Shown here in pieces: positions 46,058 to 48,679 of a stretch of DNA of 64,000 bases. The stretch covers positions 1,860,001 to 1,924,000 of the forward strand of contig NZ_CP064787.1 of NCBI RefSeq assembly GCF_017094505.1. Direction: 5' to 3'. Every line of letters begins with the position of its first letter. Positions within the stretch are counted from its first letter, which is position 1. The position numbers were made by a program, and so were the translations under genes. Source of the stretch: Halapricum desulfuricans (GTDB taxonomy: Archaea > Halobacteriota > Halobacteria > Halobacteriales > Haloarculaceae). Below the pieces are notes generated by a model that made no database searches, was not told the DNA's origin, and worked only from the letters and a program-made list of their open reading frames with translations.

Positions 46058-46162
46058 GGATAGGGTGGGACGTGCGTCGGACAGCAAACCGGCGTATTTC
46101 GACGATTGTCGTATCAGTAGTCGACAAACACTTAACCCAGTTCCCCGTCAGGACAGGTGAAC

Positions 46163-47497
46163 ATGAAAGACGTAGGCATCGACGCCGTCGAGTTCCGGTC
46201 AGGGAAGCTCATGCTCGATCTCCCGGGGACGTTCGCGGAAGTCAAGGACGAAGACCCGGCGAAGTACACGAAGGGGCTGGGGCTACACGCGAGTTCGTTC
46301 CCGGACGCGTACGAGGACATCGTGACGATGGCGGCAAACGCCTCGAAGCGACTGATGGACCGCAAGGGTCTGGAACCCGACGACATCGGCCGTATCGACG
46401 TCGCGACGGAGAGCGCGTTCGACCACTCGAAGCCGGTTTCGACGTACGTCGCCGGCTGTCTGGAGCAGGTCTACGACGGCGATTTCCGCCACGCCAACAA
46501 GGGCGAGCGCAAGTTCGCCTGCATCGCCGGCACCCAGAGCGTCGACGACGCCGTCAACTGGATCGCCGCCGACAAGAACCGCGGTCGCGCCGCGATCGTG
46601 ATCTCGACCGACACGGCCCTCTACGAGCGCGGCGACTCCGGCGAGGCGACCCAGGGTGCCGGCGCCGTCGCGATGCTCATCGACGAGGACCCCGATCTCG
46701 TCACGATCGACCCCGAACAGGGTATCGGTAGCGTCGACGAGACGGACTTCCTCAAGCCGAACCAGCAGTTCCCCTCAGTCGACGGCAAGCGCTCGATGCA
46801 GGTGTATCTCATGCGGATGCGCGAGGCGCTGGAAGACTACGAGACGCAGGTCGAGACCCACCCAGACGACTTCGCGTTCGTCCCGTTCCACACGCCGTTC
46901 CCGGGGATGGTGCGCAAGGCCGCTCCGCTGGGGTACCGACACGTCGCGCGCGACACCGAAGTCGAGGACGAACTCGCCGAGGAGATCGGCCGCCAGCCCC
47001 GGCCCGAGGCGTTCGACGATGACGAGGCGTACCGCGAGGCGCTCAAAGAGTACACCGACAAACTGACCGAGACCGAGCGCTATCAGGAGTGGTACAGCCG
47101 CGCGATCGAACCGACGCTGGACATCTCCTCGCGCGTCGGCAACTGGTACACCAGTTCCGTCCACCTCGCCCGCATCTCGGCGCTCAAGCACGCCCGCGAG
47201 AACGGCATCGACCTCGACCACGAGCGACTGCTGGTCGGCTCGTACGGTTCGGGGGCGCAGGCCGAGATCCACGGCGAGACGGTCCAGCCCGGCTGGGAGG
47301 ACGAGATCGCACAGCTCAACGTCGACGATCAACTGGTCGAGCGTTACGACCTCTCCTGGGAGGAGTACGAGCAGATCCACGACGTGCACAACCACGAGGA
47401 ATCGGTCGACGTCGATCCGTTCACGACGCCTGAAGGGGAGTTCGTCTTCGACGGCTGGGGTCGAATGGGCGAGCGGAAGTACACCTACGTCGAATAG
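46163..47497 (+). CDS. hmgB: Hydroxymethylglutaryl-CoA synthase
   Basis: A 444-residue mevalonate-pathway enzyme joining acetyl-CoA and acetoacetyl-CoA. The catalytic cysteine is in KFACIAGTQS. Other landmarks are ATESAFDHSKPVSTYVAGC, AFVPFHTPFPGMVRKA with the active His, and the GSYGSGAQAEI near the C-terminus. The ATG at 46163 is preferred over the GTG two codons earlier; CACTTAACC lies about 30 bases upstream. Its last 42 coding bases are duplicated 210 bases downstream. Confidence 0.95.
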   Translation: MKDVGIDAVEFRSGKLMLDLPGTFAEVKDEDPAKYTKGLGLHASSFPDAYEDIVTMAANASKRLMDRKGLEPDDIGRIDVATESAFDHSKPVSTYVAGCLEQVYDGDFRHANKGERKFACIAGTQSVDDAVNWIAADKNRGRAAIVISTDTALYERGDSGEATQGAGAVAMLIDEDPDLVTIDPEQGIGSVDETDFLKPNQQFPSVDGKRSMQVYLMRMREALEDYETQVETHPDDFAFVPFHTPFPGMVRKAAPLGYRHVARDTEVEDELAEEIGRQPRPEAFDDDEAYREALKEYTDKLTETERYQEWYSRAIEPTLDISSRVGNWYTSSVHLARISALKHARENGIDLDHERLLVGSYGSGAQAEIHGETVQPGWEDEIAQLNVDDQLVERYDLSWEEYEQIHDVHNHEESVDVDPFTTPEGEFVFDGWGRMGERKYTYVE

Positions 47498-47501
47498 TCA
47501 C
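47456..47501. repeat. 46-bp direct repeat, first copy (3' end of HMG-CoA synthase gene)
   Basis: The sequence from TGGGGTCGAATGGGCGAG to CGAATAGTCAC recurs exactly at 47666-47711. This copy holds the true end of the HMG-CoA synthase gene. Confidence 0.95.
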
Positions 47502-47665
47502 CGCAGGACACTCACTCGCGAGCGTCGGAGACGCGAGCGAGGTCGTTTTTCCCCACGTTCGTCAGAGCGAAGCTCTGACGCAGCCCATCAGAAATCTCCG
47601 ATTTCTGAGGACGTTTTTGCGACCGAGCGGTTCCCGCAGGGCCGAAGGCCCGAGGGAGTAAAAAG
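47502..47665. repeat. Hairpin-rich insert between 46-bp direct repeats
   Basis: 164 noncoding bases with four stem-loops: CTCGCG...CGCGAG, the perfect GTCAGAGC-GAA-GCTCTGAC, CAGAAATC-TCC-GATTTCTG, and GGGCC-GAA-GGCCC. It also has two GTTTTT tracts (near 47549 and 47612). It separates two genes whose stops would otherwise touch. It may be a small non-autonomous mobile palindromic element or a bidirectional terminator block that was duplicated in. Confidence 0.7.
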
Positions 47666-47711
47666 TGGGGTCGAATGGGCGAGCGGAAGTACACCTACGT
47701 CGAATAGTCAC
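47666..47711. repeat. 46-bp direct repeat, second copy (at dehydrogenase 3' end)
   Basis: Exact copy of 47456-47501. It contains an orphan HMG-CoA synthase C-terminus and stop, and the TGA (47708-47710) of the convergent dehydrogenase gene. This copy therefore probably preserves the ancestral convergent junction. Confidence 0.95.
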
Positions 47712-48679
47712 GGAACGACCTGATTGTCGAGGTCGTCCCACGATCCGGACTCGACCGCGCGTTCGACGTTCCTGACGACGATATCGGCCAGTCGATCGTA
47801 GTACTCGGGCGTGTACCCGCCGTTGTGTGGCGTGATCAGGACGTTCTCGAAGTTCCAGAGCGGGTGCTCCGGGGGCAGCGGCTCGGGATCAGTCACGTCC
47901 AGCGCGGCCCCGCGGATGTGGTTCCACCGCAGCGCGTCGACCAGCGCGTCGGTCTCGATCACGCCGCCGCGGGCGACGTTGACGACGACCGCGTCGGGAT
48001 CGAGCAGGTCGAACGCCGCACCGTCCAGCAGGCCCTCGGTCGTCTCGGTCAGCGGGCACGCGAGTACGACCCCCTCGGAACCGGAAAGCGCCGTCTCGAG
48101 GTCGTCGTAGCCGAACACCGCGTCGGCGGGGCCGCCCTTTTCCGGCGTGTGACGGACCGCCCGGAGGTCGACGTCGAACGGCCGGAGCCGACGGGCGATC
48201 GCCGTTCCGATCGCGCCCAGTCCGACGACGGTGACGGTACGACCGGCGAGTTCGCCGGGCTGGAAGTTGCGCCACTCGTGGTTGCGTTGCTGGCGGCGCG
48301 CCCGGAAGAGGCCGCGAGTCAGCGAGAGCAGCGACCCGACGGCGTGCTCGGCGACGTTCGATGCGTGGACGCCGCCGGCGTTGGTCACCGTTACGCCCTG
48401 CTCGCGCAGTTCCGAGAGCGGGAGGTGGTCGGTGCCCGCGTACGAGCAGGCGAACAGTTCGAGGGCCCCGGCCCGGTCGAGGTCGTCGGGCGAGATGTAG
48501 TTTCCGACGACGACGGTCGCCGAGGGCAACGCCGCGTCGATTTCGTCGCTCGTTCGGGCGAGCGATACGTCCCCGTCGTAGCGTGCGCGCAGCGACGAGA
48601 CCAGCGATTCGACGGGGATCCCGTGTGGCTTCTGCGGGAGGACGAGAATCTCGGGTAACGCTGTCATCGTACGGGTCAT
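47708..48679 (-). CDS. D-2-hydroxyacid dehydrogenase
   Basis: A 323-residue NAD(P)-dependent reductase of the SerA/GyaR fold. The Rossmann motif is VVGLGAIGTAIA. The catalytic Arg is in NVARGGVI, the Glu in DPEPLPPEHPLW and the His in TPHNGGYTP. The substrate could be glyoxylate, hydroxypyruvate or a longer keto acid. A TATA-like box near 48708-48712 favours the ATG at 48679 over the ATG four codons later. Its stop lies in the second 46-bp repeat. Confidence 0.92.
   Translation of the reverse strand: MTRTMTALPEILVLPQKPHGIPVESLVSSLRARYDGDVSLARTSDEIDAALPSATVVVGNYISPDDLDRAGALELFACSYAGTDHLPLSELREQGVTVTNAGGVHASNVAEHAVGSLLSLTRGLFRARRQQRNHEWRNFQPGELAGRTVTVVGLGAIGTAIARRLRPFDVDLRAVRHTPEKGGPADAVFGYDDLETALSGSEGVVLACPLTETTEGLLDGAAFDLLDPDAVVVNVARGGVIETDALVDALRWNHIRGAALDVTDPEPLPPEHPLWNFENVLITPHNGGYTPEYYDRLADIVVRNVERAVESGSWDDLDNQVVP

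Follow-up and report, generated by a model that had tools for sequence, protein, structure and literature searches.

How did the 3′ end of an HMG-CoA synthase gene come to stand twice, on either side of a short palindromic sequence, with the gene itself intact? The locus lies in a 64,000-nt stretch of DNA (the window) from the single-contig, 2.94-Mb genome of a haloarchaeon of the genus Halapricum, referred to here as G000.

The duplicated gene end and its insert

The HMG-CoA synthase gene (46157–47497, plus strand; PF01154 and PF08540) ends with a TAG stop codon at 47495–47497. A preliminary description of the locus had reported a 46-bp direct repeat around this stop, and the two copies (47456–47501 and 47666–47711, plus strand, with starts 210 bp apart) proved identical at 46/46 positions; the whole window holds two copies of the 46-mer and no more. 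The left copy comprises the gene 3′ end, the stop codon and 4 nt. The right copy contains, as had been described, the stop codon (TCA at 47708–47710) of a convergent 2-hydroxyacid dehydrogenase gene on the minus strand (47708–48679, assigned by Pfam). Between the copies lies a palindrome-rich insert of 164 bp (47502–47665, plus strand). Its exact boundary can be placed only to within about 3 nt, since TGG opens the gene copy and GTGG closes the insert.

The four stem-loops and the T tracts attributed to this insert were recovered as well. Triloop stem-loops are predicted at about 47515–47541, 47560–47580, 47588–47608 and 47639–47651, and T tracts lie at 47546–47550, 47614–47618 and, on the minus strand, 47664–47660. 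The folding z-scores were −4.5 for RNA and −4.7 for DNA, and 0/200 shuffled inserts were equally stable in either calculation. Read on the plus strand, the first predicted stem-loop (47515–47541) stands 5′ of the T tract of a conserved left motif, TTTTTCCCCACGTT (47546–47559), in which the T tract is followed by C, like the intergenic termination motif of H. volcanii in excerpts of PMC7237163. Then come a nested, PATE-like block of two hairpins (56 bp, 47558–47613), a core arm TTTTT ... AAAAA (47614–47664) enclosing the inner hairpin at 47639–47651, and the conserved right end AAAAAGTGG (47660–47668; CCACTTTTT on the minus strand), which forms a precise junction with the gene copy. Rfam gave 0 matches within the window at the gathering score.

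Filled and empty sites in relatives

Comparison of the junction in a close relative, which the preliminary description had proposed, revealed an empty site. In G001, the closest among six genomes of the genus, the synthase and dehydrogenase genes abut through a single 46-mer with 2 differences, the insert is absent, and the downstream DNA is continuous with the right repeat copy of G000. Within G000 the two copies match fully, and each departs from the G001 sequence at 2 positions. Plain replication slippage, which had also been put forward, is not supported, because slippage alone brings in no cassette that is absent from the empty site. A gain of the cassette at the G000 synthase locus is likely rather than certain, because in the outgroups G002–G005 the synthase does not lie beside the dehydrogenase.

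Another G000 cassette (L038) provides a second filled/empty pair against G001; its 45-bp repeat stops at a T tract and is present twice in G000 and once in G001. At L037, the gene and the first hairpin are kept in G001 and the core is missing; this pair is weaker because the DNA beyond differs in G001. The repeat copies of L195 are identical (41/41), yet that site is filled in other species too, and identical copies are therefore no proof of youth.

The synthase gene of G003 also carries a cassette, with a different repeat of 127 bp, and none was found at the synthase of G002, G004 or G005 within the 400 nt that follow the stop codon. The right repeat copy of G003 runs into TAG(C/A)GAG, the same downstream start as in those three genomes, whose downstream sequence favours cassette gain in G003. 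The synthase gene has thus been hit twice, with differing breakpoints (repeats of 46 bp in G000 and 127 bp in G003). The synthase 3′ flanks of G002, G004 and G005 (L016, L014 and L012) carry rapidly differing hairpin arrays of another type, made of GGAGTAGCGAGA... units.

A cassette family with two settings

A search for the block elsewhere, likewise suggested at the outset, identified the insert as one copy of a multi-copy cassette family standing behind many genes; the finding is a cassette family rather than a lone curiosity. The 98 distinct copies compared follow a common plan of one or more hairpins, TTTTTCCCCA(A/C)GTTTTT, an inner palindrome and AAAAAGTGG. The stretch CCCCA(A/C)GTTTTT is only partially complementary to AAAAAGTGG, the left boundary varies, and a stem of at least 4 pairs beside TTTTT/AAAAA was present in 27/88 interiors versus 8.3% of mispaired ones. 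With at most one mismatch, TTTTTCCCCACGTT has 11 matches in G000 (reversed control, 0). The shorter TTTTTCCCCA(A/C)GTT occurs in 58/116 genomes of the taxonomic family (its reversed control gave one match, in one genome), and TTTTTCCCCA(A/C)GTTTTT in 52/292 genomes of the class (control, 0). Named hosts, from genome contigs and with the right end missing in a few matches, are Halapricum, Halorhabdus, Halorientalis, Haloarcula, Halosimplex, Halomicroarcula, Natronomonas, Salinibaculum, Salinarchaeum, Halobacterium and Halococcus.

The right end followed within 300 bp in 101/105 motif matches, and the largest core in the 300 bp searched measured 195 bp. On contigs with non-haloarchaeal titles the right end followed within 300 bp in 1/52 matches, most of which are evidently chance. 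A phage origin was rejected, as the insert had no match in phage records; six plasmid records matched, with best places covering 21–38% of the query around the nested block, and a motif scan of viral contigs found 39 stretches with the 17-base motif. Removal of 4 matches without a right end and of 3 repeats from the 105 left the 98 copies, at 91 loci; L020, L022 and L026 were read as well and are not among the 98. All listed places were taken in G000 (11/11), G001 (10/10), G002 (7/7), G003 (33/33), G101 (13/13) and G105 (3/3), and some of them in G005 (11/12), G061 (3/4), G004 (9/20) and G050 (1/5). G003 has the most copies, with 33 motif matches on one contig.

For each copy, 400 bp upstream were compared with 150 bp downstream, and a score of at least 19, a threshold chosen after the scores were seen, was taken as a direct repeat. 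Such a repeat was found in 34/98 copies. In 32/98, at 28 loci, its downstream copy begins at a position between −2 and +10 nt relative to the GTGG end of AAAAAGTGG. When flanks were mispaired, 19/3000 comparisons had a repeat at the right-end position and 122/3000 reached the score anywhere, the top-scoring ones including shared orthologous genes; in the reverse-complement control, a copy's own downstream flank scored in 2/98. Orthology among several of these 28 loci brings the number of independent insertion events below 28. In most cases the duplicated upstream DNA is the 3′ terminus of the preceding gene, usually including its stop codon, and 28 of the 34 copies with a repeat have on their left a predicted gene whose 3′ end faces the cassette. 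At 21 single-cassette loci, which have two gene-end copies and one cassette, the repeat is 25–127 bp long (median 52; L198 with 88 bp is included). The left boundary coincides with the stop codon or follows it closely (L039, L206, L232), comes after a first hairpin (L036, L037, L196) or lies at TTTTTCCC (L038, L237, L252).

No repeat was detectable in 64/98 copies. A predicted gene on the right runs towards the cassette in 58 of these 64, and its stop codon lies 0–12 nt from GTGG in 53/58 (49 within 0–6 nt) and 139–368 nt away in the other five; in copies with a repeat, the nearest facing stop is 39 nt from GTGG. Gene ends on both sides were predicted, in place of annotation, by a purpose-built codon model trained on 36 reading frames of the window. 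One repeat-free cassette, behind a gene with a GGM tail that we take to be thermosome-like, is kept in four species (G000–G003) and absent from G005, and its stem shows compensating changes (ACGCCG/CGGCGT in G000, CGGCTG/CAGCCG in G003). Some cassette copies are evidently old and conserved, others recent. According to the preliminary description, a block without the duplication, or one that is an ordinary conserved terminator, would tell against a mobile unit. Both objections apply in part, as 64 copies are repeat-free and the class kept in four species looks like a conserved terminator, whereas at the synthase locus the block and the duplication come and go together.

The nested 56-bp block (47558–47613) also stands without a cassette in haloarchaeal plasmids (six records matched, four read), and one plasmid relative sits within a tnpB-type coding sequence of an IS605 element, beside tnpA. 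A further relative without the cassette motif was observed in G000 itself (L005, G000:C1:1079891-1082950, at about 1494–1549). The block resembles the PATEs of Haloquadratum, which have near-terminal palindromes and no target duplication, according to excerpts of PMC3119063. Five cassettes in four species carry the nested block at the same core position, with neighbour genes that differ by eye; between G000 and G005 the blocks are identical (56/56) and the cores match at 118/132 positions. Either one tagged cassette would have spread, or the block would have re-entered the same site, and spread is the simpler reading. A donor cassette with the nested block was not found elsewhere in G000.

Several loci have peculiarities of their own. 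Nine in G003 (L214, L215, L216, L218, L220, L224, L229, L230 and L233) have a repeated 3′ module (...GGTGGCC...CCCGGGGAAGGGCAGGCCTGC...) ahead of the cassette; Rfam gave no match for this module at the five loci tested, and tRNAs only across ten cassette loci. L194 (G001:C1:700839-704233) consists of tandem units of gene end and cassette, in which the gene-end copies are near-identical and the hairpin stems are exchanged for different, fully paired stems. At L044 (G000:C1, about 225.8 kb), L247 and L201, a stray gene end "...VEEAVGD stop" precedes the cassette and the front gene is a different one; at L044 and L247 it stands directly behind an older cassette-like right end. This gene end may be a passenger carried with the cassette, and gene ends related to it were found elsewhere too. 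At L027 (G005:C1:808612-811677), a tRNA gene adjoins the cassette, and the 3′ end of the tRNA is partly repeated on the cassette's far side.

Proposed insertion and termination, and known systems

What the sequences themselves display is a repeat, its empty site, a cassette family of consistent orientation, and a right end that is precise where the left end and the duplication length vary. We consider it probable that the insert is one copy of a haloarchaeal cassette that spreads as a bidirectional terminator, has a single precise end and comes with target duplications of great and variable length, and that it landed at the synthase after the split from G001. The small unusual mobile unit suggested in the preliminary description thus gains support from the G001 empty site, the multi-copy family and the 28 loci where a cassette accompanies a duplicated gene end, but its form differs from the one proposed. 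A short non-coding cassette would spread between the 3′ ends of haloarchaeal genes and would have arrived behind the synthase after the lineage had separated from that of G001. Its right end (AAAAAGTGG plus 0–5 nt) would have been joined about 40 bp inside the 3′ end of the synthase gene, and the left end immediately beyond the stop codon; joining at these two points would explain why 46 bp were duplicated and the synthase left intact. Insertion could proceed by one-ended, target-primed copying from another cassette, in which the precise right end is joined first and the process finishes variably on the left, at short homologies such as hairpin arms or TTTTTCCC.

Two candidate enzyme families were searched in 16 cassette-bearing genomes. 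The reverse transcriptase family RVT_1 was found in 0/16 (the control search was positive in 3/14 known genomes). Y1_Tnp was present in 11/16 and not found in G003, G004, G020, G050 and G105; a Y1 transposase as a necessary component was rejected, since Y1_Tnp was not found in G003. The searches for these two families did not identify the inserting enzyme. We tentatively raise the possibility of a new class of haloarchaeal mobile element, a non-coding terminator cassette of 60–250 bp that would copy itself between gene ends by a one-ended, target-primed DNA mechanism without need of RVT_1 or Y1. It would duplicate the last 25–127 bp of the host gene and leave that gene intact, and the transcription terminators of a genome would thereby be dispersed and exchanged as mobile DNA.

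The terminator function proposed in the preliminary description agrees with the hairpins and T tracts, which are terminator-like signals; termination in both directions is read from the sequence. The intergenic termination motif of Haloferax volcanii is a T tract with termination at C (excerpts of PMC7237163), and the cassette likewise has a T tract followed by C, with a preceding hairpin, directly behind genes. It differs from the H. volcanii terminators in that the same excerpts describe those as site-bound signals, whereas the cassette is repeated, keeps a fixed core and turns up at new genes. We infer that the cassette acts as a bidirectional terminator: the hairpin followed by TTTTTC would stop synthase transcripts, and CCACTTTTT would stop those arriving from the opposite (right) side.

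The same comparisons bear on other readings. That the cassette is ancestral at the synthase and was lost cleanly from G001 by recombination between the direct repeats seems rather unlikely. Precise loss between the 46-bp repeats would yield exactly the G001 sequence, a syntenic outgroup is absent, and the site shared by L195 and L252 suggests that homogenisation of repeat copies can occur; however, the G000 copies are identical to each other with both 2 positions from G001, and the outgroups favour gain at the same gene in G003. It is also unlikely that the copies are ordinary, vertically inherited bidirectional terminators whose repeats arose as tandem duplications of gene end plus terminator by unequal exchange. 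Such a history would suit the 53 of 58 repeat-free copies that sit 0–12 nt from a facing stop codon, the copy kept in four species with compensating stem changes, and the tandem gene end and cassette arrays at L194, L040 and L229. Unequal exchange, however, requires a prior cassette, and the G001 synthase and L038 sites have none; moreover, the single-cassette loci have two gene-end copies for one cassette, and the genes beside the nested-block lineage change from one species to another.

That the cassette is a non-autonomous unit of the IS200/IS605 type (PATE), mobilised by a Y1 transposase, appears improbable. The PATEs of Haloquadratum resemble the cassette in being short, non-coding, palindromic, multi-copy and haloarchaeal (excerpts of PMC3119063), palindromes run throughout the cassette, a PATE-like block is nested in it with a relative inside the tnpB of an IS605 element, and Y1_Tnp is present in 11 of the 16 genomes. 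Yet PATEs and IS605 elements give no target duplications, according to those excerpts, whereas the cassette duplicates 25–127 bp, and Y1_Tnp was not found in G050 or in G003, the cassette-richest genome with its 33 motif matches. Insertion of a retroelement by target-primed reverse transcription would account for an element whose 3′ end is precise while its 5′ end and its target duplications vary. The cassette shares these hallmarks with LINE-type elements in its right end, left end and repeat length; we nevertheless regard a retroelement as very improbable, with no RVT_1 in any of the 16 cassette-bearing genomes searched for that family. Unlike LINE-type elements, the cassette is non-coding and prokaryotic. 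Gene and tRNA 3′-end repeats of such length are typical att duplications, and the L027 repeat lies at a tRNA. That the cassette is what remains of an integrated element whose tyrosine integrase attached it at gene 3′ ends is nonetheless scarcely credible, because the repeats differ from gene to gene and the cassette stays constant, so that no element could hold att sites to match all these genes; nor do the copies have a long interior, the right end lying at most 195 bp away within the 300 bp searched.

The preferred reading, a spreading terminator cassette, also has partial parallels among other repeats. REP/BIME sequences with RAYT transposases are palindromic repeats between genes, often behind them; to our knowledge, REPs give no gene-end duplications, unlike the cassette. 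In Neisseria and Haemophilus, paired DNA-uptake sequences serve as terminators and are thus, like the cassette, repeated inverted sequences behind genes; they differ in measuring about 10–12 bp and are not known to bring a flanking duplication. Target duplications of MITEs are short and of fixed length, unlike those of 25–127 bp at the 21 single-cassette loci. MITEs, including the haloarchaeal ones in excerpts of PMC3119063, otherwise resemble the cassette in being small, repeated and non-coding with inverted near-end sequences, which in the cassette are only partly complementary (CCCCA(A/C)GTTTTT ... AAAAAGTGG). An autonomous parent of the cassette was not found in phage and plasmid records or where the right end was sought within 300 bp of the motif. 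The literature search, which covered few subscription papers, gave no description of such a cassette family, and the main text of PMC12306157, on REP/BIME elements with RAYT transposases, contains no word starting with "Halo".

If this reading is true, a large archaeal group owes part of its transcription terminators to a DNA cassette that spreads, rather than to evolution in place. The cassette would also explain duplicated gene ends that otherwise resemble assembly errors or slippage. Its scars, with one exact end and long, variable gene-end duplications, fit no prokaryotic transposition mechanism known to us. The set of filled and empty sites offers concrete material for tracing the enzyme and for asking whether a terminator can be gained in one step.
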